64,000 nucleotides of DNA from positions 1 to 64,000 of the forward strand of contig JAPLDF010000069.1 of the NCBI GenBank assembly GCA_026391835.1, written 5' to 3'. The DNA comes from Bacteroidota bacterium. Its GTDB lineage: Bacteria; Bacteroidota; Bacteroidia; Bacteroidales; FEN-979. The notes below the pieces were generated by a model. It made no database searches and was not told the origin of the DNA. It saw nothing but the letters and a program-made list of their open reading frames with translations. The position numbers and the translations under genes were made by a program. Positions 4,029-23,435 of the stretch are shown one piece after another (position 1 is the stretch's first letter; every line of letters begins with the position of its first letter).

Positions 4029-4496
4029 CTATTTATCAGCTTTCGTCTTTTCAATCAGCCTGATCTCCCCGATGACCATGGTTTTATCAACGGCTTTGCA
4101 CATATCGTAAATGGTGAGCAGGGCGACGGAAACAGCCGTGAGCGCCTCCATTTCGATGCCGGTCGGGCCGGTGCACCGGGCAAGGCTTTCAACAGTCACA
4201 CCGGTTTGATCTGTCATTGCTTTCACGTCAAGTTTCGTGATCTGGAGCGGATGGCACAGCGGGATCAGTTCGCTTGTACGTTTTCCGCCCTGGATTCCTG
4301 CAATTTCGGCAATGGTCAGCACATCACCCTTCTTCATTTTATTCTCCCTGATCAGCGACAGGGTATTTTCGCTGAGGAGGATGTGCCCCTGTGCCCTGGC
4401 GGTGCGCAGCTGTGAAGGCTTGGCACTGACGTCGACCATGTTTGCTTTGCCTAGGTCGTCCACGTGGGACAGGGATGGTTTTTTTATTTCCGACAT
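4029..4496 (-). CDS. moaC: cyclic pyranopterin monophosphate synthase MoaC
   Basis: MoaC converts the radical-SAM product of MoaA (3',8-cyclo-dihydro-GTP) into cyclic pyranopterin monophosphate, the first committed intermediate of molybdopterin. The 155-residue length is normal for the family. Family motifs are [13 protein letters not shown] around residues 71-83 and [18 protein letters not shown] followed by YDMCKAVD, which carry the catalytic Lys and Asp region. It lies downstream of moaA on the same strand, but the 254-bp gap contains hairpins and an octamer array. Confidence 0.95.
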
Positions 4497-4746: not shown

Positions 4747-4750
4747 GTCC

Positions 4751-5551
4751 TTACCCCCCAATATTATGAAACCCGCCGGTAACATTCACACTCCCTTTCT
4801 CCGGTTTTTTGCCGACGGCCTGTTCAAGTGCTTCACGGATACCCAGTTCGCGGGTGCTGAACTGGATGTCGTTAAACAGGCAGGGACGGATCATGCCGCT
4901 CGCGGTGAGCCTGAGCCTGTTGCAGTTCACACAGTCGCCGCCATGGCCATTCTCAACGATGGTAAAACATCCGTCGGCCAGGCTCATTTCATGGATGAAC
5001 CGCGCTTCGAGACCGTTCAGCCGGCAATACTCTTTTACGGCCTGCGCATCAGGTTCGTCAGATGAATGACGTACCACGCAGTTTATCTTCACCGGTGTCA
5101 AACCGGCTTTTTGGGCTGCATCAATGCCTTCAAAAACCTTCTGAATATCGCCGCCGCGGGTGATGGCCCTGTATTTTTCAGCATCAACGGTATCGAGGCT
5201 GACATTGATCCGGTGCAGCCCGGCCTTTGCCAGATCTGCTGCAAAAGTGGAAAGAAAAATGCCATTGGTTGTAAGTCCAAAATCCGTGATCTCTTTGATT
5301 GCAGCAATTTTTTCAACCAGCGAAACAACGCCTTTGCGCACCAGGGGCTCGCCGCCGGTAATCCTGACCTTGGTGACACCCAGGGTGACTGCCTCCCGGA
5401 TGACCTCCACGATCTCTTCAAAACTCAGAATATCTTTATGGTCCAGCAACTTCACCCCTTCGGCCGGCATGCAATAGGTGCAGCGGAGGTTGCAGCGGTC
5501 GGTGATGGAGACGCGCAGGTAGTTTATTTTTCGGTTATAACGGTCGTACAT
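4751..5551 (-). CDS. moaA: GTP 3',8-cyclase MoaA (short form)
   Basis: Radical-SAM enzyme that starts Moco biosynthesis from GTP. The N-terminal cluster site is C20, C24 and C27 in CNLRCTYC. The SAM-binding TGGEPLV motif and a second 4Fe-4S site at C207, C210 and C224 (CX2CX13C) follow, and the protein ends in the Gly-Gly typical of MoaA (HNIGG). At 266 residues it is about 55-65 shorter than usual MoaA. The missing part lies between FIHEMSL and GGDCVNC, where most MoaA proteins carry an extra segment before the second cluster. Both clusters are intact, so this looks like a natural compact variant, not a broken gene. It overlaps the end of moeA by 17 bp, so the two are probably cotranscribed. 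Confidence 0.92.
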   Translation of the reverse strand: MYDRYNRKINYLRVSITDRCNLRCTYCMPAEGVKLLDHKDILSFEEIVEVIREAVTLGVTKVRITGGEPLVRKGVVSLVEKIAAIKEITDFGLTTNGIFLSTFAADLAKAGLHRINVSLDTVDAEKYRAITRGGDIQKVFEGIDAAQKAGLTPVKINCVVRHSSDEPDAQAVKEYCRLNGLEARFIHEMSLADGCFTIVENGHGGDCVNCNRLRLTASGMIRPCLFNDIQFSTRELGIREALEQAVGKKPEKGSVNVTGGFHNIGG

Positions 5552-6734
5552 GTACCTGCTCTCCTTTGGCTATGCGAAGGGTTCCGATCTCCATCTCCAT
5601 GATCCCGTTGGCAATGGTGTAGGCATTGATGTGTGCCGATCCATGGTATTCGACCGGGAAAACGGCGCCGTCTTTTATGACGACAGGGATCATCGATTTT
5701 CGTGTTGACTTCCGACGTGAAAAATCAGCACCCATGGGCAGCGTGAATACCCGTGGCTTCGTGGTGTTCCCCATCATGCTGCGCAGGAAAGGTTTTACCA
5801 TGATCTCAAATAGCACAAATGACGAGACCGGGTTCCCGGGCAATCCAAAAATGAATTTGTTGTCCCGCCGGCCGAAAACCGTCGGTTTGCCCGGTTGGAT
5901 GGCAATACTTTCAAACAGTATCTCAATGCCTGCCTCCAGCATGACTGCCGGGACAAAATCGAAATCACCCATGGATACCCCGCCGGTAAGCAGCACCACA
6001 TCGCTCTCTGCAAGGGCAAGGTCGATGATCTTGCGCAGCGCGGCACCTTCATCGGACACAATGCCATAACAGGTGGGTTGTGCCGGCACGGTCTTAACCT
6101 GGGCCTCCAGCTGCGATGCATTTGAATTCCGGATCTGTGCCGGTCCGGGCGTTACGGAGGGTTCAACAAGTTCATCCCCGGTGGAGATGATGCCGACCCG
6201 GGGAAGCTTTGCCACCAAAGGGTTTATAGCCCCGACTCCTGCCAGGACGGCCACATGCGCCGGGGTAATCTGCAGGCCTTTCTGCAAGACGAGGTCACCC
6301 GACCTGATATCTTCTCCCTTGTAGCAGATGTTGTTTCCCATATTCACATGGGTTATCCTCACTGTGTTTTCGCCGGTCATCTCCGTGTCCTCGACCATGG
6401 CCACGCAATCGGCTCCCGGGGGAACCATTGCCCCGGTCATTATTTTGGAACACTGGCCCTGCTGAATGGTGATCTGCGGCATGGTTCCGGCCGGGATGAT
6501 TTCAGCAATATGGAGTGTCACTGCCCTGTCCGGCTCCTGCATGGCGGCGTTCAGATCAGCCAGCCTTGCAGCATAACCGTCAACTGCCGATTTATCGAAC
6601 GGCGGCATGTCCATGTCAGAAAATATATCTTCGGCCAGTATCCTTCCCAAACAACCGGGCAAATCAACGCGCTCAACTTCAGTCGTATATGTTTGGGAGA
6701 GAACTGTGGTTACGGCATCTTCGAATAAAACCAT
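5535..6734 (-). CDS. moeA: molybdopterin molybdotransferase MoeA
   Basis: MoeA inserts molybdate (or tungstate) into adenylylated molybdopterin. Recognisable are PPFDKSAVDGYA (about residues 42-53), the GTGDE-like ISTGDELVEPS, TGGVSMGDFDFV and FGLPGNPVSSFVLFE, plus a C-terminal beta-barrel domain. Length (399) is normal. It lies 47 bp downstream of wtpC across four GATTTAC repeat units and overlaps moaA at its end, linking metal transport to cofactor assembly in one transcription direction. Confidence 0.93.
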   Translation of the reverse strand: MVLFEDAVTTVLSQTYTTEVERVDLPGCLGRILAEDIFSDMDMPPFDKSAVDGYAARLADLNAAMQEPDRAVTLHIAEIIPAGTMPQITIQQGQCSKIMTGAMVPPGADCVAMVEDTEMTGENTVRITHVNMGNNICYKGEDIRSGDLVLQKGLQITPAHVAVLAGVGAINPLVAKLPRVGIISTGDELVEPSVTPGPAQIRNSNASQLEAQVKTVPAQPTCYGIVSDEGAALRKIIDLALAESDVVLLTGGVSMGDFDFVPAVMLEAGIEILFESIAIQPGKPTVFGRRDNKFIFGLPGNPVSSFVLFEIMVKPFLRSMMGNTTKPRVFTLPMGADFSRRKSTRKSMIPVVIKDGAVFPVEYHGSAHINAYTIANGIMEMEIGTLRIAKGEQVHVRPL

Positions 6735-6781: not shown

Positions 6782-7834
6782 TTATTTATTGATAAACTTC
6801 ACGGCGGTTGCCTTAAAATGGACCCAGCAGGTTTTTCCTGTCTGCAGGGCCAGTTTTTCAAGCGATTCGCGGGTGATGGTCGCGTGCAACTCGATCCCCA
6901 GGTCGATGGTCACCTCGACTCCTCCTGCATTGGGCACGATTTCCAGGATTGTACCCGGGAAATTATTTGTAGCGCTGGATTCAACCGGCATGGCCGACAA
7001 CAGGATATCCTCGCCGCGGATGAGGATAAAACCCTCCTCGCCGGTTACATCCGTAACGATACGGACAGGGACATTGTTGTTGGTATATGCAAAGGTAACC
7101 TGATTTTCGGATACAAGGCTTACCGCGAAAAAGTTCTTAACACCGATGAAATGGGCGACGAATTCTGATGTCGGATGATGGAACACTTCGGCAGGGGTGC
7201 CCGACTGAATGATCGTTCCCTTGTGAATAACGGCAATCCTGTTGCCCAGCGAAAGGGCCTCTTCATAATCGTGTGTGACATGCAGGATCGTTTGCCCCTT
7301 ACGGTGAATAGCCCTGAGCAGCCGGCGGAGTTCGCCTTTCAGCCTCGGATCGAGCGACGACAGCGGCTCATCGAGCAACAACACTTCCGGCTGCTGGATG
7401 AGGGTGCGCCCGAGGGCCACGCGCTGAAGTTCACCGCCCGACAAGGTCGACGGCCTGCGCGCCAGCAAATCCCCGATGCCGAGTTCCGATGCAATTGCCT
7501 TCACCCTGTTGTGCTTTTCCTCCCTGCTCATTGCCGCACCGTGAAGGGAATAGGCGATGTTTTCTCCAACGGTGAGATGGGGAAATACGGCGTGATCCTG
7601 GAAAACCAGGCCGATCCTGCGGTGCTGAATTTTTTCGGTTGTGATGTCCCGGCCATTGATTAAAACAGTCCCGGAATCAGGCGCAACCAGCCCGGCGATC
7701 GTTTCCAGCACCATGGATTTACCTGCGCCCGATTCGCCCAGCAGGATGAAATAATCTCCCCGCTCCACTGAAAAGGAGACATCCGCCAGGCAGAAATCAG
7801 CAAATTGCTTTGAAATATTCCTTAATTCCAGCAT
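6782..7834 (-). CDS. wtpC: tungstate/molybdate ABC transporter ATP-binding protein
   Basis: Energises tungstate or molybdate import through the WtpB permease. The ATPase domain has Walker A GESGAGKS (about residues 33-40), signature LSGGELQRVALGR, Walker B VLLLDEPLSSLD and the switch His in HVTHD. About 120 C-terminal residues form a Mop/TOBE-like oxyanion-sensing domain, typical of ModC/WtpC, that can inhibit transport when metal is plentiful. It follows wtpB by 27 bp. The choice of W over Mo rests on the neighbouring WtpA and cannot be made from this protein. Confidence 0.88.
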   Translation of the reverse strand: MLELRNISKQFADFCLADVSFSVERGDYFILLGESGAGKSMVLETIAGLVAPDSGTVLINGRDITTEKIQHRRIGLVFQDHAVFPHLTVGENIAYSLHGAAMSREEKHNRVKAIASELGIGDLLARRPSTLSGGELQRVALGRTLIQQPEVLLLDEPLSSLDPRLKGELRRLLRAIHRKGQTILHVTHDYEEALSLGNRIAVIHKGTIIQSGTPAEVFHHPTSEFVAHFIGVKNFFAVSLVSENQVTFAYTNNNVPVRIVTDVTGEEGFILIRGEDILLSAMPVESSATNNFPGTILEIVPNAGGVEVTIDLGIELHATITRESLEKLALQTGKTCWVHFKATAVKFINK

Positions 7835-7861: not shown

Positions 7862-8659
7862 TCATTGTTTCACTTCTTCGCCATTTCTTTCCTTTGCCAT
7901 CCACCTCAACACGATAAACAGTGCCAGCGATATCAGGATGAACAGTACCGACACCGGTCGCGCATATTTAAGCCCGAATGATCCGAACCTTTCATAGATC
8001 AGTACCGGGGTGATCATCGGGTGGTAGGCCACAACGATCACGGCGCCGAATTCACTCATCCCCCGGGCAAACATCAGGATCAGCCCCGACAGGATGTTGC
8101 GCCAGGCCAGGGGCAGCGAGATGGTGAAAAATACCCTGAACGGGGAGGCTCCCAGGGTAAGTGCAGCTTTTTCAAGACGCAAAGGAACCCCCGAAAACCC
8201 ATCCCTGGCTGCATTGATGAGGTAAGGGATGCTCACAAAGGCCATGGCAATGGCGATCCCGGCGGGATGGCCGACGAAATCGAGGCCGACAGCCGAGCCC
8301 ATCTTTCCAAGGGCTGATTCACGCGAAACAAATCCTAGCAGGGCGATGCCGGCTGCCGAATGGGGGATCACCACGGGCAGGTCAATGATGCCGGTTACCA
8401 GCTTTTTCATGGGGAAATGCTTTCTCGCAAGCAGGTAGGCCAGCGGGATGGCCGCAACCGAAAAAACCAGGGTTCCGGCCAGCGAAGTATAGATGGTAAG
8501 CCAGATGCTGTTTCGCACCTCTGCCTCACGCGCCGTTTCAAATACCTGTGAAGGGGTCGTGCTCAGGAACATCCCGGCAAGCGGCGCAACAATGAACAGC
8601 AGCACCAGGGAACCCAGGAGGAGAAATGCTAATTGTATGGCAGAAAAACGACTTGTCAA
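7862..8659 (-). CDS. wtpB: tungstate/molybdate ABC transporter permease
   Basis: Inner-membrane channel protein of about six helices, 265 residues, the usual length for ModB/WtpB. The EAA loop that contacts the ATPase is visible as KAALTLGASPFRVFFTISLP. Upstream signatures include DLPVVIPHSAAGIALLG, typical of oxyanion permeases. It lies between the secreted SUOX-like gene and wtpC on the same strand. Confidence 0.9.
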   Translation of the reverse strand: MTSRFSAIQLAFLLLGSLVLLFIVAPLAGMFLSTTPSQVFETAREAEVRNSIWLTIYTSLAGTLVFSVAAIPLAYLLARKHFPMKKLVTGIIDLPVVIPHSAAGIALLGFVSRESALGKMGSAVGLDFVGHPAGIAIAMAFVSIPYLINAARDGFSGVPLRLEKAALTLGASPFRVFFTISLPLAWRNILSGLILMFARGMSEFGAVIVVAYHPMITPVLIYERFGSFGLKYARPVSVLFILISLALFIVLRWMAKERNGEEVKQ

Positions 8660-8707
8660 ACTGAAAATTAAAAATTAAAAATTACGACCTGGTTTCACCC
8701 CTCATTC

Positions 8708-8775
8708 GTCACTTGTCACTTGTCACTTGTTACTTGTCACTTTGTCCGCCTGTCCGCTTGTCCGCTTGTCCGCCT
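8708..8775 (+). repeat. composite array: GTCACTT x5 joined to GTCCGCYT x4
   Basis: Five 7-bp units (8708-8742; the fourth is GTTACTT) are followed one base later by four 8-bp units (8744-8775). The right half lies inside the 3' end of the minus-strand gene 8730-9851, whose stop codon is the TAA supplied by the GTTACTT variant. Confidence 0.9.
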
Positions 8776-9851
8776 GTTTCAAACCTGATCTCCGAAAGCG
8801 CCTTAACCGCCCTGTCGGAGAAGAAATCGCACGACGGGAAGATGCGGAATTTGCCACCGTCTTTTTCATCGGCACACGGAACGATGAGCACTTCGGCCTG
8901 GTCGCTGCGGTTCATGATTTCACTGAAGGAAAACACCGACCTGTATCCGTCGATGCCGGCAAGCACCACCAGGCCTCCCCGAAGGTTTTTCCGGTTAAAT
9001 TTGATCTTACCTGCAAGGTATTCCTTCAGGTACACCCCCGAAAACGGTTGTGTACTGTGAATACCCCGGCCTTTTCCATAAAAAATGGTGTGAAGTGTCT
9101 CTGTTTGCAGGGATGCCGGGAGAGTCTTCATCTCTTCAACCTGGTCTTCATTCATAAATACCCTGACTGTTTCGGCGTACAACGGACTAATATCCCGGTT
9201 GACCGTATATTTGCGGGGATAACTCATCACAGTGATCCTGACAGGGTTCCTGATGTTCCTTTCAGCGATAAGATCGCTGGCTACAACCAGTTTACTTGTT
9301 GTGGGCAAAGGCCATAGATCCTTTGTTTTGCTGGGAACGATGCGCATCACCTCCGTGGCAATGATAGAATTATGCAGGAGGTTGGGGTAATAGATCTCGC
9401 CCCAGGTCATCACCACCTTTTCTCCAAGGTCGTTTTCAATTTCCACGTAAACATCAATGATGGGGTTAAATTCGGCCTTGTTCTTCTTTTTCAGGATCCG
9501 GTCCCTGAGAATGTCAAACAACGAATATCCGTCGTACCGGTAAGCACCGACAAACTGGTTGCCGGTATCCTTGTTGAGCAAGGCCTCCTTTACGATGACC
9601 GAATGTTTGGTGAGTTTGGAAAAGTCGACTTTCCCGGGGTTTTCAACCTCGCCGTCAACAACAAGGTCTTTGAGCGGAAGGGTGAACGTTTCTTCATTGT
9701 CGTAAAAGTTGTTGTTGCGGTCGGCAGCATCGCGGAATGCTTTAGTATCTGCTGCAGGAACTGTTGATTTTTTCATGGCAGTTGTTGGTTCCTGGGTATA
9801 TGCTGCCTGTAAAGTTAGTGTGAAAATAATAAGCCAGATGAGTTTTTTCAT
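8730..9851 (-). CDS. secreted protein with two molybdopterin-oxidoreductase (SUOX)-fold-like domains
   Basis: The 373-residue product has a signal peptide (MKKLIWLIIFTLTLQAAYTQ). Two stretches resemble the sulfite-oxidase-like molybdopterin-binding fold: about residues 60-215 (VDGEVENPGKV, RYDGYSLFDIL) and about 240-355 (FSGVYLKEYLAG, AGIDGYRSVFSFSEI). Neither shows the canonical Mo-ligating Cys in its usual setting, so a catalytic role is doubtful; a structural or oxyanion/cofactor-binding role is an inference. It sits between the TonB receptor (18 bp) and wtpB in the Mo/W block. The last residues, GGQADKRTGGQSDK, are encoded by the intergenic repeat array, suggesting that repeat growth replaced the original C-terminus. 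Confidence 0.65.
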   Translation of the reverse strand: MKKLIWLIIFTLTLQAAYTQEPTTAMKKSTVPAADTKAFRDAADRNNNFYDNEETFTLPLKDLVVDGEVENPGKVDFSKLTKHSVIVKEALLNKDTGNQFVGAYRYDGYSLFDILRDRILKKKNKAEFNPIIDVYVEIENDLGEKVVMTWGEIYYPNLLHNSIIATEVMRIVPSKTKDLWPLPTTSKLVVASDLIAERNIRNPVRITVMSYPRKYTVNRDISPLYAETVRVFMNEDQVEEMKTLPASLQTETLHTIFYGKGRGIHSTQPFSGVYLKEYLAGKIKFNRKNLRGGLVVLAGIDGYRSVFSFSEIMNRSDQAEVLIVPCADEKDGGKFRIFPSCDFFSDRAVKALSEIRFETGGQADKRTGGQSDK

Positions 9852-9869
9852 GGATAGAGTTGTTATGGA

Positions 9870-12260
9870 TTACAAAGTTACTGATATTTCTCCTGTGATC
9901 ATTCTGCCGGGGCTTTGCTGGAGGCGGTCGTCCACAAACCTGGCGTCAAAAATATTGTCGATGTTGATGGCTGCCGTGAGATGTTTGAAAAATGTGTGCC
10001 AGAGTCTTGCGCCGATTGTCTGGAAAGCAGGGTATTTTGTGGTAAGCAGGTAGGGGTCGGTTTCATTCACATCTTTGATATACCTCGTTCCCGTATATTT
10101 CCAGAGTAAGTTGATGCTGACGATCTTGTTTTTTACAGTAATACCGGCGGAGGCCTTGTTCATGGGGACATCCGTGAGGAACTTTCCGTTCAGGTCGCGG
10201 TCGACTGTCGTATCTTTCGAATGAAAACTGCTGATCACCGAATGGTTAAAGGTATAATTGGCGAATATCGTCAGCCATTTGAACGGATCAATGTCCAGGT
10301 CAAGTTCAAAACCCGTGATATCGACCCGGCTGATGTTTTGTTTCATAAATACCGGTGTTCGTTTGTAGCCCATGTTCACCGAGTCGCCTGTGCTCACGTA
10401 GTACATGAAATTCCTGCCGATGGAGTGGTAAAGGGAGGCAGCCACATGAAGTTTCTTCAGCAGGAGCAGGTCGGTTCCCACTTCAAAATTGTCGAGCACT
10501 TCAGGTTTAAGTGCGGGGTTCGCCACTTTAAACCCGTTGGAGATTTTCCCCGACCTGCACAGGTCGTCGAGGTTCGGTGCACGGAAACCCTGGGCAGCCG
10601 AAAGGTAGATACGCGACTGCGTGGTGAAACGATACTGGACCGACATTTTGGGATCCGCCTGGAACCACTGGTTCCCCGGGAACAGACTATCCTGGTAATT
10701 CACCAGGTACTGGATGGAGTAGGAGGGGTCGTCAATCCTGAAACTTCCGTCATGGAAAATGGCGGTATTGAGGCGGATGCCCAGGTTGAACTGTAGCTTT
10801 TTATCGAGCAGCCCGATCTCATCCTGGACAAACAAAGCCCAGGTATCCATCTTGCCGGCATTGGTAATCAAATCGGTGGAGGTGTAATAAATATCCTCGC
10901 CATGCACACTGCCAAACTGGTAATCAATTCCAGCTGTGAACATGTGGGATTTTCCTGCCGGAATTTCTGCATTCAGGCTTATACCCCGGTCGATCCTGTT
11001 CGATTCAACAAGGTAGAGGCTGTATTCTCCCTCCTTCATGTATTCGTTGAGACGCTCAAAGTGCTCATCCTGGCTATATGCCAGGAAGTTCCACCGCAGG
11101 GTGCCTGTTCCGCCGCGGTATCTTGCATTTGCCTGCCAGGTTTTGTGCCGTTCGTAAGCCCCGTCCACTTCGTAGATCTCGACACCCCTGCCCCGTTTGT
11201 CGTTGAAGTAGTTGGCGCTTATTTCTACGATGTTCAGCGGATTAAACCGGTACCCTGCCTTGGCACCGAAGGATACTTCGCGTACAAAGTTGTTTACATA
11301 AAACGTATCGCTTTTTTCAAGGTATTGGGGGATCTCAGGATTATATCCGTCGCTTCTCCTGTAAAAACCGTTCAACCCGTAGGAAAAACCCTTTCCTGTA
11401 ATGGAAGGTTTGAGTTTGCCGGCCAGTTGGTAACGGAACCCGGCTGTGTTGAAGGTGCCGTAATCAAGGGTGGCCACGCCTGAAACCAGGTTGACAGGCC
11501 TCTTTGTCTGAATATTGATCACCCCGCCCATGGCGCTGCTCCCGTATTTTGCGGAGCCGGGCCCCTTGGTGACTTCAATGCGTTCCACGTTGTCGCGGTT
11601 GATCAGGTTCCAGTTCACACTGCCGGCATCCGCCTTGTTCATAGGGACATCATCGAGCAGTACCAGGGTTCGCGCCTGGTCATTTCCGCTGAGCCCCCGC
11701 AGTGTCACCACCGTGTTGTTGGCAAAAATGCCCATGGTCGAAGAGAGGTTCACCCCCGATATGAAATCAAGTACCGACACAACGCTCTGGCCGGGATTGT
11801 TTGAGATGGTCTGCGAGGTGATGATTTCCATACGCACCGGCTCATCCTGGGCCACCCGTTCGGGTTTCGCCTCGATGATTTCGACCTCCGGGGTGCTGAT
11901 GGCGTTGACTTCAAGGTTGAAGTCAGCCCTGGCATTCTCACTATCCTTAAGGGTGATGGTTTTTGTCCCGGACTTGTAGCCCATGAATGAAACCCTGATG
12001 CTGACTTTCCCGGGTGCGACGCCGGTGATCATATAGGTCCCTTCTTTATCCGTATAAGCGACCTTTGACTGAGACCCGAGAATAACATGCGCCCCTGCAA
12101 GCGGGGTATTGCCGGGCATCCCGGTCACCCTGCCGTGGATGGTCCCGCCGGCAGCAGCCATGGAAAATGGAAAGAGGGCAAGTACGCAGGTAGCCCACAT
12201 CAGGAAACTGCCTGGAATCCCTGCCCTCATGACACGTGAAAAATATTTATTCAACAACAA
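9870..12260 (-). CDS. TonB-dependent outer-membrane receptor of the Mo/W block
   Basis: The 796-residue protein has a signal sequence, a carboxypeptidase-regulatory-like beta-sandwich (about residues 40-120, GRVTGMPGNTPLAGA), a plug domain (about 140-265, with TLRGLSGNDQARTLVLLDDVP and GGVINIQT) and a C-terminal beta barrel. It should move a scarce solute across the outer membrane using TonB energy. No SusD-like partner is present, which argues against a glycan system. Its position between WtpA and WtpBC, with tight spacing to its neighbours, suggests a molybdate or tungstate species (perhaps chelated) as substrate; this is inference. The start overlaps the preceding T9SS gene by 14 bp; Met11 would also leave a good signal peptide. 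Confidence 0.9.
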   Translation of the reverse strand: MLLNKYFSRVMRAGIPGSFLMWATCVLALFPFSMAAAGGTIHGRVTGMPGNTPLAGAHVILGSQSKVAYTDKEGTYMITGVAPGKVSIRVSFMGYKSGTKTITLKDSENARADFNLEVNAISTPEVEIIEAKPERVAQDEPVRMEIITSQTISNNPGQSVVSVLDFISGVNLSSTMGIFANNTVVTLRGLSGNDQARTLVLLDDVPMNKADAGSVNWNLINRDNVERIEVTKGPGSAKYGSSAMGGVINIQTKRPVNLVSGVATLDYGTFNTAGFRYQLAGKLKPSITGKGFSYGLNGFYRRSDGYNPEIPQYLEKSDTFYVNNFVREVSFGAKAGYRFNPLNIVEISANYFNDKRGRGVEIYEVDGAYERHKTWQANARYRGGTGTLRWNFLAYSQDEHFERLNEYMKEGEYSLYLVESNRIDRGISLNAEIPAGKSHMFTAGIDYQFGSVHGEDIYYTSTDLITNAGKMDTWALFVQDEIGLLDKKLQFNLGIRLNTAIFHDGSFRIDDPSYSIQYLVNYQDSLFPGNQWFQADPKMSVQYRFTTQSRIYLSAAQGFRAPNLDDLCRSGKISNGFKVANPALKPEVLDNFEVGTDLLLLKKLHVAASLYHSIGRNFMYYVSTGDSVNMGYKRTPVFMKQNISRVDITGFELDLDIDPFKWLTIFANYTFNHSVISSFHSKDTTVDRDLNGKFLTDVPMNKASAGITVKNKIVSINLLWKYTGTRYIKDVNETDPYLLTTKYPAFQTIGARLWHTFFKHLTAAINIDNIFDARFVDDRLQQSPGRMITGEISVTL

Positions 12261-13134
12261 AACAGGTTGAATATTCGCGGTCAGATCCGCTGAACTTAAC
12301 CTTTAGCAGGTAGAGCCCTGGTTTTGCATACGGCATTGAAACGGCCTGGTTCTGCGAAGGCGCGGCCATGGTAACGATGGCTTTTCCATGGATGTCGGTT
12401 ACCGACATGAAATCCAAAGGCTCTGTGGAGGAGATGTTGAATGTTCCGTTGTTCGGGGATGGAAAAACCTTCAGCCTGTTCGTGAAGAGGATTTCATTTT
12501 GCCCGGTTGAACTGACAGCCGTGACGAGAATGTCATCGATCATTGACTGGCCTGCAGGTGCAACAGTACCTCCTGTGATGTCGTTATTGGATGTCATGAT
12601 CCAGCGGATGTAGATGGAACCGGTGCCCTGGCCGGTAATTGGGACCGGAAGGTCAGCAACCACGCCGGTCGTCCAGTCTGAACCAAGTGTGATTGTTCCG
12701 CCGGTGACATCCGCATAGGTGCCGCTGCTTAAACGCCACTGGAGCTTGAAATCGCGGGGCCCGGTGGCATCGCTCTTCTGTTTGGAGGAGACCTTGAAAT
12801 TTGTATAGTTGCTGGCTTTGAATTTGACAGACCAGAACTTGACGTCGGCGCCACCGGCCCAGCCGGTTGTGGCAGCTGCATAGGTTGTGGCCCCGTTGAC
12901 AAACGTGATGGTGTTGAGTGTTGAATCGGTCGTTGGCGTCAGCACCCATTGAAAGCGGAGATCATAAGATTTATTCGTGGTGCTGCCCATATTGGCATTC
13001 AGGCTGTCGGTACCGGTATTTACCGGGAAGTTCCAGCCTGTGATTGTTTCCTGGGCCGAAAGCGCCCCTGAAATGATGACCATCATTGCAAAAAGTAATC
13101 CTCTTTTCATAAAATGTTGTTTTAAGTTTGACAT
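12247..13134 (-). CDS. T9SS-sorted surface protein, function unknown
   Basis: The product has a signal peptide (best start may be Met9, giving MKRGLLFAMMVIISGALSAQ), then a beta-rich, Thr/Gly-rich region of about 190 residues. A type IX secretion C-terminal domain follows, with VFPSPNNGTFNIS near residue 225 and the closing strand GLYLLKVKFSG. It should therefore be exported through the outer membrane and displayed or released. It precedes the TonB receptor gene and overlaps it by 14 bp, so the two are translationally coupled and probably functional partners. I do not recognise the central domain; a role in capturing the receptor's substrate is speculation. Confidence 0.8.
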   Translation of the reverse strand: MSNLKQHFMKRGLLFAMMVIISGALSAQETITGWNFPVNTGTDSLNANMGSTTNKSYDLRFQWVLTPTTDSTLNTITFVNGATTYAAATTGWAGGADVKFWSVKFKASNYTNFKVSSKQKSDATGPRDFKLQWRLSSGTYADVTGGTITLGSDWTTGVVADLPVPITGQGTGSIYIRWIMTSNNDITGGTVAPAGQSMIDDILVTAVSSTGQNEILFTNRLKVFPSPNNGTFNISSTEPLDFMSVTDIHGKAIVTMAAPSQNQAVSMPYAKPGLYLLKVKFSGSDREYSTCFVVE

Positions 13135-13158
13135 TAGGGTTAAATATTAGAATTTGGT

Positions 13159-14064
13159 TTATTGTTGAATTTTCATGGCGAAGGTGGTGGTGCCTGCAGG
13201 ATCATTTTCCACGGAAAGCACCCTGATCAGTCCTTTTTTTCCGGAGGAGGTCAGAAATGGGATCACTACACCGGGTTCGGCCCATTTGAATTTACGTTTG
13301 CCCCACACATCGTCGTAGGAAACAATCAGCAGGCTGTCGTTGTGGCAGGCATCGAACGCAGCAACCGGCACGGGGTCGGTATCGACGCTGATGTCGTACT
13401 TGGTGTAGTTTTTTACCGTCCACTGCCCGACTGCAGGGTAATACTCGGTGATGCCGCCACCGGTTTCGCCCGGCGATGAAAAGGTGGGGGACGGGGTGCC
13501 ATCGACATAATAATAGGTGATGATGTCAACCAGGTTTTGGTTCATCGCGGCTGAATCGGCAAAAAAAACCTTCCCTGTTGAAGGGACCAGGAACTGGCCA
13601 TGGGTCGTGCTGTTCTGGAAACCCATCACAATAAACGGATAATCGAGGATTCCTCCCCATGTCGAAGCAGGATCCTTGTAAAGCGTGATCGCTGTGGTGG
13701 CGAACTGCCTGTTTTTGTCCATCACCTGGAAGGTCCAGCGGGCTTCATCCTCAATACCCTGGTAAAAGGTTTCGTTGACATTAAAACCGGTGGAGTTCAG
13801 CCCCGAATCAAGCACCACTTTGACGGTGCCGTCGGGCATGATCTTCTTCACCACCAGGTTTGTAATATTGGCATCTTTCGCCGAAGCGGAAATGCCAAAC
13901 CGGAGTTTTCCTCCCACCGCAACAATTGCGCCATCTGAGGTGTATTCAGCACCGCTCATCAGGGTGATGACAGGCGGCACCGGGTTTTCATCTTTTTTAC
14001 AGGAGGCAATTGCCACGACCAGCAGCAGGATGCCAAGGACAAGGTGAATGGGTGATTTTTTCAT
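13159..14064 (-). CDS. lipoprotein of the Mo/W block, function unknown
   Basis: The start is ATG at 14062-14064, giving MKKSPIHLVLGILLLVVA and a lipobox ending IASC; a longer frame to 14145 only adds an unlikely hydrophilic leader before the signal peptide. The mature protein (about 280 residues) begins CKKDENPVPP and is beta-rich with no motif I recognise. Asn/Asp-rich loops and a KDPASTWGG segment are visible. It lies between wtpA (85 bp upstream) and the T9SS gene (24 bp downstream). A surface or periplasmic lipoprotein next to a TonB receptor often helps deliver its substrate, which is the best guess here. Confidence 0.75.
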   Translation of the reverse strand: MKKSPIHLVLGILLLVVAIASCKKDENPVPPVITLMSGAEYTSDGAIVAVGGKLRFGISASAKDANITNLVVKKIMPDGTVKVVLDSGLNSTGFNVNETFYQGIEDEARWTFQVMDKNRQFATTAITLYKDPASTWGGILDYPFIVMGFQNSTTHGQFLVPSTGKVFFADSAAMNQNLVDIITYYYVDGTPSPTFSSPGETGGGITEYYPAVGQWTVKNYTKYDISVDTDPVPVAAFDACHNDSLLIVSYDDVWGKRKFKWAEPGVVIPFLTSSGKKGLIRVLSVENDPAGTTTFAMKIQQ

Positions 14065-14149
14065 AGATGTGAGGTTGTCGATATGTCTGGTACTGCATAT
14101 CGGGCACGTTTTTTTATTTCCTGGGTAGATGATCATATTTTGCAATGTG

Positions 14150-15100
14150 CTATTTTGTCGCGAAGGGCTTCAGTGATACCGGCAGTTTGTCGAAATTCGG
14201 ATTCGGCTGGGGGATCACCGATGGCTGCCCGTTATTTTCAAGGATCTTAATACCCTGTTCTTTGCTGAGCAGGAATTGCATGAAGGCAAGTGCTGCCGGT
14301 TTGTTTTGTGCGGCAGAAATCATGGTAACCCCGTAGATCATGGGTTCGCCCTTCATCGTAACCTTTTGCCCCGGCTCCTTGCCATTGATGGAGACCATGG
14401 CCGAGTTGTAGAGATCTGTGAATTTGGGATCTTTCAGGTTCACCTCGGATGGCAGTACCAGGTATTTCAGGTTGTGCTGGATCGCAACCGATTTGTACAG
14501 GAAGATATAATCAACCGACTGTGATTCAAGGACTGCCAGCAGGTCGACCTCTTTCGGGCGCATGTAATTCTGATCCTTTGCTGTGAGCAGGCCGGCAAGG
14601 CCGGGTTTCCTGTAATGTTTTTCAGCAAGCTGAATGGTCATGAGCGAACGGTAGCCGCAGGGGTCGGCGTTGGGATCGGCCCGGCCGTAGGCAACATCTT
14701 TTTTCAGCAGGATCTCATACCAGTTTTTGGCATTGATCTGGCTGGCATATCTCGACTTTTCGGTGTAAACGATGCACATCTCATTTGATACGAACTTGAT
14801 GTTCCAGCCGGCAAACTTCGGGATCAGGATGTTGTCGATCACTTTGTAGTCCGATGATGCCATGATATCACACGGCTTGTTCAGGTCCGTGATTTTGCGG
14901 GCGCATTCAACGCTGCCGGCCGACTCCATGAGGATGTTCACCTCAGGGTTGATCTTTTTAAACGCTGCGGCGATCTCCTTCATCGGGACCGAAAGGCTTC
15001 CCGCATGAAAGATCACCAGGTCGCCCGAAACCGGCTGTTGTCCAAAACCTGAACAAAGGGCAATTACCCCAAGGATCAGCGTGAAAATTACTTTTTTCAT
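14150..15100 (-). CDS. wtpA: tungstate/molybdate-binding protein WtpA
   Basis: Periplasmic solute-binding protein with signal peptide MKKVIFTLILGVIALCSGFG. Family signatures are VIFHAGSLSVPMKEI near the start of the mature protein, ESAGSVECARKITDL, DIMASSDYKVID and GRADPNADPCGYRSLM. These resemble the WtpA/ModA group first known from archaea, which binds tungstate and molybdate in octahedral geometry, more than enterobacterial ModA. Its permease and ATPase genes are 5.5 kb downstream, separated by four extracytoplasmic genes on the same strand. It begins 20 bp after the ModE-like regulator. Confidence 0.93.
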   Translation of the reverse strand: MKKVIFTLILGVIALCSGFGQQPVSGDLVIFHAGSLSVPMKEIAAAFKKINPEVNILMESAGSVECARKITDLNKPCDIMASSDYKVIDNILIPKFAGWNIKFVSNEMCIVYTEKSRYASQINAKNWYEILLKKDVAYGRADPNADPCGYRSLMTIQLAEKHYRKPGLAGLLTAKDQNYMRPKEVDLLAVLESQSVDYIFLYKSVAIQHNLKYLVLPSEVNLKDPKFTDLYNSAMVSINGKEPGQKVTMKGEPMIYGVTMISAAQNKPAALAFMQFLLSKEQGIKILENNGQPSVIPQPNPNFDKLPVSLKPFATK

Positions 15101-15120
15101 AATGTTAGGAAATCAGGTGG

Positions 15121-15498
15121 TTATTTTTTTAATTCCTGGATAAACTTTTCAAATCCCTGCTGGATATGGGTGTCAACGGTGTTGTGGAATGCATCAAATG
15201 CCCTCACCAGGCGTTTGCCCTCCTCGGTGAGCGCGGTATGGCCGCCATCACTTCCGCCGCGCTGTTTTTCGAGCAGCGGAAATCCGAAAAACTTCTCAAT
15301 TTTCTTCAGGTTTCCCCAGGTCCGCCGGTAGGTGTAACCCAGTTCATCACAGGCGGCTTTCATGGAACCTTTCTCTTCGATCAGTTTGAGCATTTTCCAT
15401 TTTCCGTCCCCCAGGATCCCGGTCTCCCGCTCATCCGACATCCAGACTTTATAATGAAGGTGTATGTCCGCCAGCTTGCTGCTGAATTTTGTCTCCAT
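15121..15498 (-). CDS. ModE-like winged-helix regulator without metal-binding domains
   Basis: A 125-residue ModE-type DNA-binding domain: GILGDGKWKMLKLIEEKGS, then AACDELGYTYRRTWGNLKKIEKF and LLEKQRGGSDGGHTALTEEG, the hallmark wing sequence. The C-terminal Mop/TOBE repeats that let classical ModE sense molybdate are absent, so it may respond through another protein or not sense metal at all. It is the first gene of the minus-strand Mo/W block, directly behind a -7 box, and so probably autoregulates the block. Confidence 0.9.
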   Translation of the reverse strand: METKFSSKLADIHLHYKVWMSDERETGILGDGKWKMLKLIEEKGSMKAACDELGYTYRRTWGNLKKIEKFFGFPLLEKQRGGSDGGHTALTEEGKRLVRAFDAFHNTVDTHIQQGFEKFIQELKK

Positions 15499-15514
15499 GG
15501 TAAACAGATTTGTA

Positions 15515-15522
15515 CAAAAATA
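15515..15522 (-). promoter_or_regulatory. -7 box (TATTTTTG) of the Mo/W block
   Basis: On the minus strand TATTTTTG lies 17-24 bp before the ModE-like ATG. It is the only clear -7 box found upstream of the block and is therefore its likely main promoter. Confidence 0.6.
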
Positions 15523-15585
15523 GAAATTTTGCGTTATGCACAGTACGACCTATCCGGAAATATTTTCTAAACCGGCCAATATGAT

Positions 15586-15593
15586 TACTTTTG
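15586..15593 (+). promoter_or_regulatory. -7 box (TACTTTTG) of the MFS gene
   Basis: TACTTTTG matches TAnnTTTG on the plus strand in the divergent gap. The GTCCGCCT array lies between it and the MFS start, so it would be in the 5' leader. Confidence 0.5.
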
Positions 15594-15653
15594 CAACCCA
15601 ATTTAGAATCACTTAAAATAAATTTAACGTCAACACCCAAAACCCAAACCCCT

Positions 15654-15685
15654 GTCCGCCCGTCCGCCTGTCCGCCTGTCCGCCT
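15654..15685 (+). repeat. octamer array GTCCGCCY x4
   Basis: Four 8-bp units followed by GTTCACCC, a unit type that forms its own array at 45043-45074. The array lies 24 bp before the MFS start codon. Confidence 0.85.
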
Positions 15686-15709
15686 GTTCACCCATTTAAC
15701 CCAATAACC

Positions 15710-17111: not shown

Positions 17112-17190
17112 CAGCTGATAATTTTATACCGATATGCATCACGTTACATATCGATAAAACCGATAATTTTGCCACAAAATATTTTCAGAT

Positions 17191-18831
17191 ATGAACAACG
17201 CACTTTTTAACATTGAGCGCCCGGAAAATGAACATACCCTCAGTTATGCTCCCGGCTGCAAGGAACGCAAGGCATTGAACGGCGAACTCGACCGGTTGAG
17301 CTCGGAAGTACAGGATATTCCGCTGATCATCGGCGGTAAGGAAGTCCGCACCGGGAAGATCGGGAAGGTGGTCATGCCGCACGACCACCAGCATGTGCTT
17401 GCAACCTATCACATGGCGGGTGAAAAGGAGGTGAAAATGGCCATTGACGCAGCCCTTAAGGCACACCTGGAGTGGGAATCGTTTCCATGGGTCGACCGTG
17501 TATCGATCACCCTGAAGGCAGCGGAACTGATCTCAAAAAAATACCGTTCGCTGGTAAATGCATCCACCATGCTCGGCCAGGGAAAAAGCGCCTACCAGGC
17601 CGAGATCGATGCCGCCTGTGAAACCATCGACTTCCTGAATTTCAATGCCTATTTCATCACCGAAATCTATAAGGAACAGCCTCATTCACAGCCGGGCATC
17701 ATCAACCGCATCGAATACCGCCCGCTCGAAGGGTTTGTGTTCACGGTGACGCCGTTCAATTTCACAGCCATTGCTTCGAACCTGAACATGGCACCGGCCC
17801 TGATGGGGAATACCTCTGTCTGGAAACCGGCCACCACCTCGCTGCTTTCCAATTATTTCCTGATGAAGATCTTCCAGGAGGCGGGTCTCCCCGACGGCGT
17901 GATCAACTTTATCCCCGGGCCGGGCAGCCTGATCGGCAAAACGGCACTCGCGCACCGTGACCTTACGGGAATACACTTCACCGGCTCCAACAATACCTTT
18001 AACAGCCTGTGGCAGATGGCTGCCCAGAATATGGCCAGCTACCGTTCCTATCCGCGGATCGTAGGGGAAACCGGTGGCAAGGATTTCATCTTTGTCCATC
18101 CTTCTTCCGATCCCCAGGAAGTTTCCGTTGCCATCGTCCGCGGCGCTTTTGAGTACCAGGGACAGAAATGTTCTGCTGCTTCCCGTGCCTATGTGCCGGA
18201 ATCGATGTGGCCTGAAGTCAAATCCCGCATCGGCGAAATGATCGGCAAGATTACAGTAGGCGATGTCCGGGAATTCAGCCACTTCATGAATGCCGTGATT
18301 GACGAGGCCTCATTCGACAACATCATGGGGTATATCGATTATGCAAAAAAATCGACAGACGCCGAGGTGATTTTCGGCGGAACCGGTGATAAGTCAGTCG
18401 GGTATTTTGTACAGCCGACGGTGATCAAAACAACCAATCCCCATTTCAAAACCATGGAGGAGGAGATCTTTGGCCCGGTGATGACCATTTACGTATACAA
18501 GGACAAGGAATTCGAGGAGACGCTGCACATTTGCGACCAGACATCCCCATACGGGCTTACGGGTTCGGTGTTTTCGAAGGATCGTGAAGCCATCAACAAG
18601 GCCTGCCGCATTTTACGCTATGCTGCCGGGAACTTCTATTTCAACGACAAACCCTCGGGTGCTGTGGTCGGACAACAGCCATTTGGCGGCGCCCGCGGTT
18701 CAGGAACCAACGACAAGTCGGGAAGCCATCTGAACCTGCTCCGCTGGACCAACCCTCGAACTATCAAGGAAACATTAATACCTTCGACGGAATTTACATA
18801 CCCGTATATGAAGGTCGATAAATGCCACTAA
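17191..18831 (+). CDS. pruA: L-glutamate gamma-semialdehyde dehydrogenase (P5C dehydrogenase)
   Basis: Second step of proline catabolism: oxidises glutamate semialdehyde to glutamate with NAD. The aldehyde dehydrogenase fold shows VTPFNFTAIASNLNMAPALMG, the glycine loop HFTGSNNTF, VGETGGKDFIF with the catalytic-site Glu, and catalytic Cys at residue 327 in GQKCSAASRAYVP. Length (546) fits the stand-alone group-2 enzyme. No proline dehydrogenase gene is adjacent. Its own promoter indicates a single-gene transcript. Confidence 0.95.
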   Translation: MNNALFNIERPENEHTLSYAPGCKERKALNGELDRLSSEVQDIPLIIGGKEVRTGKIGKVVMPHDHQHVLATYHMAGEKEVKMAIDAALKAHLEWESFPWVDRVSITLKAAELISKKYRSLVNASTMLGQGKSAYQAEIDAACETIDFLNFNAYFITEIYKEQPHSQPGIINRIEYRPLEGFVFTVTPFNFTAIASNLNMAPALMGNTSVWKPATTSLLSNYFLMKIFQEAGLPDGVINFIPGPGSLIGKTALAHRDLTGIHFTGSNNTFNSLWQMAAQNMASYRSYPRIVGETGGKDFIFVHPSSDPQEVSVAIVRGAFEYQGQKCSAASRAYVPESMWPEVKSRIGEMIGKITVGDVREFSHFMNAVIDEASFDNIMGYIDYAKKSTDAEVIFGGTGDKSVGYFVQPTVIKTTNPHFKTMEEEIFGPVMTIYVYKDKEFEETLHICDQTSPYGLTGSVFSKDREAINKACRILRYAAGNFYFNDKPSGAVVGQQPFGGARGSGTNDKSGSHLNLLRWTNPRTIKETLIPSTEFTYPYMKVDKCH

Positions 18832-21164: not shown

Positions 21165-23324
21165 CTACTGCATTGGGGAAACCACTGCAAGAAGTTCCGG
21201 CAAATCCATTCCAAGTTTTTTAAGGTGCTCGATTTTGGGTACCCCGTTTTTGGTCCAGCCCCGGCGTTCGTAAACGGCATCTAGCAGCTGTTCATATCGG
21301 CTTTCGCGGTATGCCCGCAACACTTTCATCTTCTCTTCGGTGGATTTGCCCGCAGGGTCGAAATTTACCTGCTCAAGCAGTTGTTTGTCGTACCGTTCGG
21401 CGCGCGATTCGTACTCCTCTTTTGTGACAGGACCACAGGCGCGGTATGGCTGGGCATCGTGAACACGCAACCCTTTTCCCTGGCGGATATTGAAGATGCG
21501 CTGGAAGTTGTATACCCGTTCCGACATGCGGATGATCTCATGCTTGTCGATGTTCGAACCGGTCACTGCATTGAAAATGGTCACATAGTTGTCGACATGC
21601 TGGGGAACCTTTGCAGGCTCGGCTGATTGGGCATTGTCTTCTGGTTCCACGTCATTCCACGGAAGTTTGCAGAACCCTGCCAGGCCGAACCAGGTGCGGA
21701 ACATCGGGAAATAATGCAATGCTTCTGCTTTCTTTTCGAAGGTGGGTATCTGGTTGTTCACCATATCCATAAAGATCAGCCATGCTTCATCGTGCTGGGG
21801 GCCTTTGTTGGTCATGGCATACCCGCCCTGCTGGGCGAGCGATTCCTTTGAAACATACTGTGAATATTCGAGGCCTTTGTTCTCCATGCCGATATCCTGC
21901 ATGAAACCGGCATCTCCCCAGCCGTTTTTGGCAAACAAGGCTTTCATTTTCCGTACACCCTGCCCGGCAACAGGGCCAAATCCTTCACCTTTTGAAACCA
22001 TGTGAAGCAATTCCATGGCAGCATCGGCATTGCCAAAGTTCAGTTTCAGACCGCCTGTGCGCTCTTCGTTCAGGATGCCGTTTTCGTAACACTCCATCAC
22101 AAAGCCGAGGATGCTGCCCCAGCTGATGGTACAGATGCCGTAGGTGTCGCAATAGAAGTTGGCTTCGATGGTGAAGTCGGGGTTGAAGATGCCTGCGATC
22201 GAACCAAGTGATGAAGTTGTTTCATATTCAGGTCCGTCAACAATTACCTTATCTCCCTTGTAAGGTCCTGTGCGCAGTTCATAATTGTCGACGCCCTTTG
22301 CGCAGGCCATGTTGCAGCCTACCCAGCAGCCGTCGGGGACATTCTGGGTGAAAAAGGATTTCCACACATCGCCGCTGATTTTCACGGCATCCGGGTGGCT
22401 TCCGAATTTGAAATTGTTGACAGGAAGAAGGTCATAGTCGTTCATCACGAGGGTGAGGTGGGCGGTTCCCTTCGAGCGCATTTCACACTGTTTGTCGTCA
22501 AGATCGCGCATCTCCTTGTTGAAGGTGCGGCCGCGCTCTTGGATGGCCTCCATGTTCACCACGTTGTTGCGGTTTCCGCCAATGGTCTTTACATGTGCCA
22601 CAATCGCCTTGATCTTCTTATCGCGCAGCACGGTCCCGATCCCGCCGCGGCCGGCTTGCTTGAGGCGGACCTTTTTGCGTTTGATGTCGTAGAAGCTGAA
22701 GTTCAGCATCCCGATCAGGGAGTGCTCGGCGGCAGTGCCGGCCGAAACCACCGATACATTGTATTTATCCTTTTCAATCCCGGGAACAGCCATCATGTCG
22801 TGCAGCTCCTCGGCAAGCACATGGCTGTCGGAAGGCAGGTCGCCGGCTTCGTAGATCTCGATCACTTCGCGTTCCTCTTCAAAAACAACCATGATTTCCT
22901 GGTCCGATTTTCCCTGGATCTCCAGGGCGTCAAACCCGCAAAATTTCAGGAACGGGCCAAAAAAGCCACCCACATTCGAGTCGACAACAATGTCGGTTTG
23001 CGGGCTGATGGTACAGCAAATGGCTTTTCCGCTTCCCGAATACTGTGTGATTCCGCAACAGGGACCGCCGGAGATGACGATCTCGTTTTCCGGGTCACTC
23101 CATCTTGTTTCAGGTTTGGTGGCATCCCACAGGAGGCGCAAATCGAACCCCTTGCCCCCGATGAATTTTTCTTTCATCTGCGGGGTGACAGGTTTTTCCG
23201 TGATCTTCCGGTCTCCCACATTGATATGGACCGTGCGGTTGTTATAGCCTTTGTCTATCGGGGCCCAGGTGTACTTGTACTGTGCCAGCAATTTATGTGT
23301 TTGCCTGAATTCTTCGAATGTCAT
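21165..23324 (-). CDS. aor: aldehyde:ferredoxin oxidoreductase (tungsten-pterin enzyme)
   Basis: Large AOR-family enzyme using a bis-pterin tungsten (occasionally molybdenum) cofactor and one 4Fe-4S cluster to interconvert aldehydes and acids with ferredoxin. N-terminal signatures are IGGKGFDLRLLWD and ISGGPCCGITQYSGSGK. Cluster ligands are probably C333, C337 and C341 in DGCWVGCNMACAKG plus C552 in AGFCKLPW. The spacing CX3CX3C differs from the CX2CX3C I recall for Pyrococcus AOR. At 719 residues it is about 100 longer than archaeal AOR, with an N-terminal extension of about 50 residues. No ferredoxin or FAD-subunit gene is adjacent. It is the likely consumer of metal from the Mo/W block. 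The substrate is unknown. Confidence 0.92.
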   Translation of the reverse strand: MTFEEFRQTHKLLAQYKYTWAPIDKGYNNRTVHINVGDRKITEKPVTPQMKEKFIGGKGFDLRLLWDATKPETRWSDPENEIVISGGPCCGITQYSGSGKAICCTISPQTDIVVDSNVGGFFGPFLKFCGFDALEIQGKSDQEIMVVFEEEREVIEIYEAGDLPSDSHVLAEELHDMMAVPGIEKDKYNVSVVSAGTAAEHSLIGMLNFSFYDIKRKKVRLKQAGRGGIGTVLRDKKIKAIVAHVKTIGGNRNNVVNMEAIQERGRTFNKEMRDLDDKQCEMRSKGTAHLTLVMNDYDLLPVNNFKFGSHPDAVKISGDVWKSFFTQNVPDGCWVGCNMACAKGVDNYELRTGPYKGDKVIVDGPEYETTSSLGSIAGIFNPDFTIEANFYCDTYGICTISWGSILGFVMECYENGILNEERTGGLKLNFGNADAAMELLHMVSKGEGFGPVAGQGVRKMKALFAKNGWGDAGFMQDIGMENKGLEYSQYVSKESLAQQGGYAMTNKGPQHDEAWLIFMDMVNNQIPTFEKKAEALHYFPMFRTWFGLAGFCKLPWNDVEPEDNAQSAEPAKVPQHVDNYVTIFNAVTGSNIDKHEIIRMSERVYNFQRIFNIRQGKGLRVHDAQPYRACGPVTKEEYESRAERYDKQLLEQVNFDPAGKSTEEKMKVLRAYRESRYEQLLDAVYERRGWTKNGVPKIEHLKKLGMDLPELLAVVSPMQ

Positions 23325-23364: not shown

Positions 23365-23435
23365 GTAAAAAAAATGACGCTAAATACCCGTATATCAAAA
23401 AGTTCGATAGGTTTTGTGGTGCATATCGGATGAAC

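Follow-up and report, generated by a model that had tools for sequence, protein, structure and literature searches.

A ModE-linked TonB-dependent receptor cassette beside wtpABC, a candidate outer-membrane step for tungsten and molybdenum uptake in Bacteroidales

The oxyanions of molybdenum (Mo) and tungsten (W) are generally assumed to pass the outer membrane via porins. In this study, we analysed a 64,000-nucleotide stretch of DNA from a Bacteroidota bacterium (the window; contig C58 of an 86-contig, 5.35-Mb genome that is 96.7% complete), in which genes for a lipoprotein, a protein sorted by the type IX secretion system (T9SS) and a TonB-dependent receptor lie inside a gene run encoding the predicted tungstate/molybdate importer WtpABC, and we propose that this trio is probably a ModE-controlled cassette for uptake of the two metals across the outer membrane.

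Among the closest described systems, WtpABC is an ATP-binding cassette (ABC) importer of tungstate/molybdate in the inner membrane (PMC6147048); at the present locus WtpA was found above curated cut-offs (the Pfam and NCBIfam model thresholds), WtpB and WtpC were the best matches of their genes, and the importer is accompanied by a SUOX-like protein and the outer-membrane cassette. The BtuB-BtuG(-BtuH) systems for B12 uptake in Bacteroides likewise combine a TonB receptor with surface lipoproteins in Bacteroidota (PMC10404256, PMC8941943, PMC6143338), although they serve another class of ligand. In Pseudomonas aeruginosa, ModA-IcmP of the H2 type VI secretion system (H2-T6SS) provides a described protein-assisted outer-membrane step for molybdate; in that route ModA is secreted by the T6SS and the outer-membrane protein is a metalloproteinase, and the sections of that account on this route describe neither a TonB receptor cassette nor WtpABC (PMC8602904). 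Siderophores of Azotobacter vinelandii handle Mo, vanadium and W, a likeness in the chelator-mediated handling of Mo/W outside the cell, and the relevant sections of that account name no receptor (PMC13036778). A search of open-access PubMed Central full text found no paper on a Bacteroidota TonB receptor for tungstate/molybdate, which is not proof of absence.

The run lies on the minus strand in the order modE, wtpA, lipoprotein, T9SS protein, TonB receptor, SUOX-like protein, wtpB, wtpC, moeA, moaA and moaC. A preliminary description of this locus had named the first eight genes, all of which were present on that strand in the order claimed, and had placed genes of molybdenum cofactor (Moco) synthesis after wtpC, where moeA, moaA and moaC were found; its range (7862-15498) holds modE through wtpB, with WtpC (7834-6782) falling just outside. 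The spacing was tight, as it had said: 20 nt between modE and wtpA, 85 nt from wtpA to the lipoprotein ATG, 24 nt between the lipoprotein and T9SS genes, an overlap of 14 nt between the T9SS and receptor genes, and gaps of 18 nt (receptor to SUOX), 70 nt (SUOX to wtpB) and 27 nt (wtpB to wtpC). The genes from modE to wtpC are as follows.

15121..15498, minus strand: ModE-type regulator, DNA-binding domain only, 125 aa (matches to TIGR00637 and, above cut-off, PF00126)
14150..15100, minus strand: WtpA, tungstate/molybdate-binding protein (NF003196 and TIGR03730, both above cut-off)
13159..14064, minus strand: lipoprotein, predicted to be surface-exposed, with an immunoglobulin (Ig)-like model (pLDDT 87.7); lipobox Cys22 invariant in the alignment
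12247..13134, minus strand: T9SS-sorted surface or secreted protein (TIGR04183 26.4, cut-off 23; PF18962 28.3, cut-off 27)
9870..12260, minus strand: TonB-dependent receptor with a carboxypeptidase-like N-terminal domain (PF13715, PF07715 and PF00593 above cut-off)
8730..9851, minus strand: secreted SUOX-like protein by predicted structure, usual companion of wtpABC, without invariant Cys
7862..8659, minus strand: WtpB permease (best NCBIfam match NF040839, 283 bits, under the cut-off of 340)
6782..7834, minus strand: WtpC ATPase with TOBE domain (best match NF040840, 366 bits, under the cut-off of 440; PF03459 above cut-off)

WtpA scored 370.2 against NF003196 (cut-off 355) and 319.6 against TIGR03730 (cut-off 242.75). 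The names WtpB and WtpC, given at scores under the cut-offs, are supported by the gene order with WtpA.

The conservation of this neighbourhood was determined in related genomes. Co-occurrence counts and lipoprotein clusters are based on a sample of 218 genomes of the order, used in place of a phylum-wide search in which the lipoprotein was found in 5 of 316 genomes; the named records of close relatives are mostly metagenome bins of uncultured Bacteroidales/Bacteroidetes. For the lipoprotein the first 63 matches were kept (E <= 3.9e-19), corresponding to 48 of 56 matching genomes, and a further 22 were dropped as weak matches (threshold E 1e-10). Clade receptors were taken as matches at E <= 1e-100. 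A search of 41 genomes for the SUOX-like protein gave 15 positives, including the genome of the window, and the other 14 loci were read. All 11 genes were present in the same order in five, and three more carried the trio on cut contigs; two ended inside the receptor, three consisted of wtpA-SUOX-wtpB-wtpC without the trio, and one had SUOX without other operon genes. Ten of the 14 loci thus carried either the trio or a receptor truncated at a contig end, and because the wtp core also occurs without the trio, lipoprotein, T9SS protein and receptor form a separable cassette.

A scan with the receptor alignment gave 31 loci, 25 of them at 39% identity or more. A wtp gene was present at 20 of these 25 and a lipoprotein, SUOX or wtp gene at all 25, with gene order and strand varying (in L059, L060 and L064 wtp is encoded on the other strand). 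The other six were five Odoribacter-type receptors (33-35%) and one spurious 25% match, with none of the partners but a distant ABC ATPase. The gene run is not a product of chance, as relatives keep its order and, despite reshuffling, the partners are still found together at receptor identities as low as about 40%; the 25 loci and the other locus sets are not independent, because two locus pairs share a genome and several contigs are repeated. Outside the genome of the window, 53 lipoprotein clusters were found, 19 by wtp or SUOX genes and 12 by modE, moe/moa or aldehyde:ferredoxin oxidoreductase (AOR) genes, and a T9SS protein lay within 10 kb in 26. The preliminary description had held that receptor orthologues mostly beside unrelated transporters would refute it; the close clade did not bear out this refutation, for its receptors occupied 72 places in 57 genomes, and within 10 kb had a kept lipoprotein at 54, SUOX at 27, wtpA itself at only 19 and any of these at 60.

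An association with AOR was also observed. In the 218 genomes, WtpA was found in 68, the SUOX-like protein in 45, the lipoprotein in 48 (56 at E 1e-10), AOR in 89 and PF00384 molybdopterin oxidoreductases in 130. AOR was present in 50 of 57 genomes with the receptor, 46 of 48 with the lipoprotein, 43 of 45 with SUOX and 66 of 68 with WtpA; conversely, the lipoprotein occurred in 46 of 89 AOR genomes versus 2 of 129 without AOR. When weak matches were included, it was found in 48 AOR-positive and 8 AOR-negative genomes (48/56, Fisher 1.2e-15). Fisher values reached 3e-33 with the kinship of genomes ignored, and overstate the significance because the genomes are related and many are incomplete metagenome-assembled genomes. 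Of the 48 AOR-negative genomes with PF00384, 1 had the lipoprotein (6 when weak matches are counted), 2 had SUOX, 2 had WtpA and 4 had the receptor. Because the correlation is with AOR and not with molybdopterin oxidoreductases generally, these distributions make tungsten likelier than molybdenum as the metal of the cassette; AOR-family enzymes using Mo exist. AOR was also present in 13 of the 14 lipoprotein genomes without WtpA. In some pairs of genomes from one family the genes changed together: in f11, G034 had none and G465 had AOR, WtpA and the lipoprotein, and the same held in f70 (G357 none, G469 all four), f166 (G550 none, G453 all) and f169 (G552 none, G456 all). Misfits included G385 (f98), which lacks both AOR and WtpA and yet has SUOX and a weak match to the lipoprotein, as well as G359 and G370, in each of which a weak lipoprotein match occurs in the absence of AOR.

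Upstream of modE in the relatives, a palindrome was identified, CGATATG-N10-CATATCG. A weight matrix of its two 7-base halves, trained on eight modE sites including that of the window, was applied to the window. Over the 63,977 positions of the window, the top three sites were all absent from the training set, the modE site came fourth and the next scored only 12.6. The boxes and the two further genes that they precede are listed below.

14079..14102, no strand: perfect box of ModE type, 14 nt upstream of the lipoprotein ATG (score 22.6, joint best, 0 mismatches)
17130..17153, no strand: perfect box of ModE type, 37 nt upstream of the aldehyde dehydrogenase (score 22.6, 0 mismatches)
23405..23428, no strand: box of ModE type, 80 nt upstream of the AOR ATG (score 22.0, 1 mismatch)
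15532..15555, no strand: ModE-type box before modE (score 18.4, training site, fourth best in the window)
21165..23324, minus strand: AOR-family enzyme, 719 aa (PF01314 match)
17191..18831, plus strand: L-glutamate gamma-semialdehyde dehydrogenase (TIGR01236 774 bits, above cut-off; PF00171)

When the window was dinucleotide-shuffled 60 times, the best scores had a median of 14.2 and a top value of 19.7, and one shuffle reached 18. Across the whole genome, the box with at most one mismatch was found only before the lipoprotein, AOR and aldehyde dehydrogenase genes, and with at most two mismatches at 17 places versus 5 for a reversed control. Elsewhere, 35 of 56 cassette upstream regions from non-training loci scored at least 15, versus 2.1% of 1120 regions drawn at random from these loci; broken down by setting, the box preceded 12 of 22 cassettes by wtp/SUOX, 9 of 12 by modE/moe/AOR and 14 of 22 with no such gene nearby. 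In 1,855,912 bases, 95 box sites were counted versus 3 with a reversed half-site. A ModE-like palindrome is thus, at the level of sequence, placed before the predicted target operons, and the ModE-type helix-turn-helix (HTH) protein presumably binds it. The semialdehyde dehydrogenase is predicted to belong to the same regulon, and a metal-sparing exchange of AOR with this enzyme is possible. In relatives, a box scored 19.7 or more in L022, L046, L240, L256, L271 and L277 and 15.3 in L020, and no box reached 15 in L180, L215, L232, L247, L255, L257 and L260.

The E. coli ModE box, CGNTATATA-N6-TATATANCG (also given as ATCGNTATATA-N6-TATATANCGAT), has a 24-bp span and CG-N-TAT edges in common with the box described here, whereas the inner bases of the E. 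coli and Geobacter boxes differ from it; a single-domain ModE is known from Desulfovibrio (PMC545781). The predicted targets here are the receptor cassette, AOR and the aldehyde dehydrogenase, and the 125-aa regulator has no molybdate-binding (MOP/TOBE) C-terminal domain among its Pfam and NCBIfam matches, which were of HTH type only. Against TIGR00637 it scored 75 bits (E 3.9e-21), under the cut-off of 98.5, which was exceeded in 0 of the 218 order genomes. The BtuB-BtuG(-BtuH) genes are under riboswitch control, in contrast to the ModE-type box of this cassette.

An 'IDDTDN' protein (245-267 aa) was noted near modE and the lipoprotein/receptor pair (L170:4459-5223, L174:10551-11285, L180:8766-9500, L196:6806-7606), with a weak TIGR03280 match (methanogenesis marker 11) in L174 and weak TiaS-TCKD matches in L170 and L180. 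Similar proteins are preceded by a box in L061, L064 and L266.

The products of the cassette were characterised from their sequences and models. The receptor has both a plug (PF07715) and a barrel (PF00593) domain, as in TonB-dependent receptors, and none of the 25 NCBIfam models listed for it was above cut-off. The T9SS protein carries a C-terminal sorting domain above cut-off, the mark of T9SS cargo. For the lipoprotein the best start is probably the ATG at 14064, and the residues after its lipobox Cys, K-K-D-E, agree with the rule C-X-K-(D/E)2 for surface export (PMC5080379); the motif was found in 9 of 25 lipoproteins including that of the window, in a crude count that used the first Cys and misplaced several. 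There was no Pfam match above cut-off and no NCBIfam match, nor any match to sequences of solved structures up to E = 1, and the top Foldseek matches of the model were mostly generic Ig-like domains. No SusD match was found in Pfam or among the 50 structural matches listed, which sets the pair apart from the SusC/SusD glycan systems.

For the SUOX-like protein, no match was obtained in Pfam or NCBIfam up to E 0.1, or among sequences of solved structures up to E = 1. Its AlphaFold2 model (pLDDT 80.7, pTM 0.79) had SUOX-type proteins at all of Foldseek ranks 1-5 (SorA, YedY, SorT and PruR; E 1.1e-5 for 2blf, 4.5e-4 for 1xdy, 4.8e-4 for 4pw3 and 1.2e-3 for 7kou), with low TM-scores (0.23-0.36; 0.54 for 7kou by target length) and large root-mean-square deviations. 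The predicted fold is of SUOX type, a likeness that comes solely from the model. PruR (7kou) is a secreted periplasmic SUOX-type fold that lacks the molybdenum-ligating Cys and binds pterins, and the SUOX-like family also lacks an invariant Cys; it differs from PruR in being about twice as long and in having wtpABC as partner instead of DcpA (PMC13259868, in its description of PruR). An invariant Cys was sought in 21 SUOX-like sequences and none was found, so that no Mo-ligating Cys is kept and a role as a molybdoenzyme was rejected. Internal duplication was likewise rejected, as the profile comparison of the two halves was not significant (hhalign probability 0.4%). Of the 45 SUOX-like genomes, 43 also have wtpA, and in relatives without the trio the gene sits between wtpA and wtpB; because wtpA-SUOX-wtpB-wtpC occurs by itself, the SUOX gene is best assigned to the wtp core. 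The preliminary description had counted three partners of the receptor, of which the lipoprotein, and often the T9SS protein, stand as such, whereas the SUOX-like protein tracks wtp and not chiefly the receptor. The SUOX-like protein may act as a binding protein or carrier. In intergenic gaps at 4580-4785, 8713-8760, about 15640-15690 and from about 23430, short tandem repeats of the GGCGGACA type were observed, and one run seems to lengthen the reading frame of the SUOX-like protein at the C-terminal end.

An outer-membrane step for Mo/W, as proposed in the preliminary description, is strongly supported at the genomic level for the receptor cassette by neighbourhood, AOR co-occurrence and the shared ModE-type box; the SUOX-like protein is reassigned to the wtp core. 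We consider it probable that the locus encodes W/Mo uptake that depends on TonB and is controlled by ModE, with the metal passing from the surface lipoprotein through the receptor and the periplasm to WtpABC. When metal is scarce, the ModE-type protein, if a repressor, would leave the box before the lipoprotein gene. The lipoprotein, presumably at the surface and often together with a T9SS-exported protein, would capture tungstate/molybdate, free or on an organic chelator, and feed the receptor, which would bring the metal into the periplasm. WtpA, perhaps aided by the non-catalytic SUOX-like protein, would pass it to WtpBC, and MoeA, MoaA and MoaC would make the pterin cofactor for AOR. If so, anaerobic Bacteroidota have a dedicated, energised outer-membrane step for tungsten that fills a gap in metal entry; the cassette lends itself to testing, with its genes named, its DNA box defined and a clear phenotype to look for, and two families without Pfam or NCBIfam model (lipoprotein and SUOX-like) gain a specific functional setting. 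A bolder version, which we put forward tentatively and regard as doubtful in its entirety, is a protein 'tungstophore' relay, in which the T9SS protein and lipoprotein trap tungstate, the receptor imports it, the SUOX-like protein, its own metal site lost, ferries tungstate or a pterin complex to WtpA, and a ModE-type switch trades AOR against the NAD-linked aldehyde dehydrogenase. To our knowledge, no such protein-based tungsten-scavenging relay has been described in any other system.

Several observations weigh against metal uptake by the cassette. A receptor lay within 10 kb at only 15 of 66 wtpA loci (of 67, own genome excluded), where the lipoprotein was found at 12, SUOX at 24 and AOR at 12, and many of these contigs are short (8 kb on both sides in 17); because of this low count, the cassette is regarded as an optional partner of wtpABC. 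No recognised Mo/W gene was nearby in 22 of the 53 lipoprotein clusters, several of them on short contigs. An unassigned ABC ATPase is near the cassette in L175, L269 and L279 (wtpC-profile score 149-156). ModA was found in only 1 of the 14 lipoprotein genomes without WtpA, TupA not having been sought, and the 8 AOR-negative genomes holding the lipoprotein at the weak threshold point the same way. Of the cassette promoters, 21 of 56 score under 15, and a box lies within 600 nt upstream of only 27 of 66 wtpA, 4 of 12 AOR, 7 of 27 modE and 2 of 42 SUOX genes. Finally, the Odoribacter-type receptor of L067 is beside Peripla_BP_2 and FecCD genes (region 9899-15756). Seven AOR-negative genomes have a clade receptor; five of them were read, over stretches of 5-7 kb, and a FecCD gene was near in three. 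The 20 neighbour proteins of orphan cassettes that were scanned, among them LpxC, LpxD and a tRNA synthetase, gave no hint of another substrate.

An alternative that we judge unlikely is that the ligand imported by the cassette is an organic compound from the cofactor pathway (pterin, molybdopterin or a released Mo/W cofactor), bound in the periplasm by the SUOX-like protein, with ModE control explained because the cassette would serve the same enzymes. The resemblance of the SUOX-like model to Moco enzymes and to pterin-binding PruR, and the lack of an invariant Cys in its family as of a metal-ligating Cys in PruR, would suit such a ligand, and TonB receptors usually carry bulky or chelated ligands; however, loci lacking the receptor also combine wtpABC with the SUOX-like protein, which is therefore not tied to an outer-membrane step, WtpABC is an oxyanion importer, and MoaA, MoaC and MoeA are also encoded in the window.

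It is very improbable that the receptor imports an unrelated ligand (iron-siderophore, haem or cobamide) and is present here by chance or as part of a general anaerobic regulon. Its best NCBIfam matches, all sub-threshold, are haem, siderophore and B12 receptors, among solved chains the colicin I receptor and PhuR are closest to it, and FecCD transporters adjoin some sister receptors; against this stand the clustering with wtp, modE, moa and AOR genes across many families in shuffled orders, the strong AOR association, and the box before 14 of 22 cassettes without a Mo/W gene nearby. In the five AOR-negative genomes described above, no lipoprotein and no box above 10.2 was found in the stretches read. 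As some sisters adjoin FecCD transporters without a box, Mo/W specificity of the whole receptor family was rejected, and since these sisters also lack the lipoprotein, only lipoprotein-linked receptors are regarded as Mo/W candidates. The slightest chance is given to a cassette that senses the metal at the surface, or signals its presence, in place of transporting it. The lipoprotein and T9SS surface protein that accompany the receptor would suit such a role, as would the lack of a recognised metal-binding domain in the regulator; against it, no STN-type signalling domain was among the receptor's Pfam matches and no sigma/anti-sigma match among the scanned run genes, no wider search for such genes having been made.

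Near the Odoribacter-type receptors, a TrmO-FmdE fusion was noted at L065 (5906-6832), L067 and L069 (14854-15747), L066 and L068 being outside the scan. As the FmdE family name is linked to molybdenum, a second Mo/W route is possible there.

The remaining genes of the run encode cofactor synthesis.

5535..6734, minus strand: MoeA (PF03453, PF00994, PF03454)
4751..5551, minus strand: MoaA, short form, 266 aa (PF04055; PF06463 34.5 bits, just under the cut-off of 37.4)
4029..4496, minus strand: MoaC (TIGR00581 above cut-off)

The Mob_synth_C domain of MoaA is partial and just under cut-off; because several relatives align across all 266 residues, the protein looks like a natural short form. The closest solved chain to the AOR-family protein was the P. 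furiosus-type AOR 1aor (E 1.8e-49), and several tungsten enzymes were also in the match list. Elsewhere in the genome, on contig C47 (68917-70918), a second ModE-type gene directly adjoins a PF00384 molybdopterin oxidoreductase.

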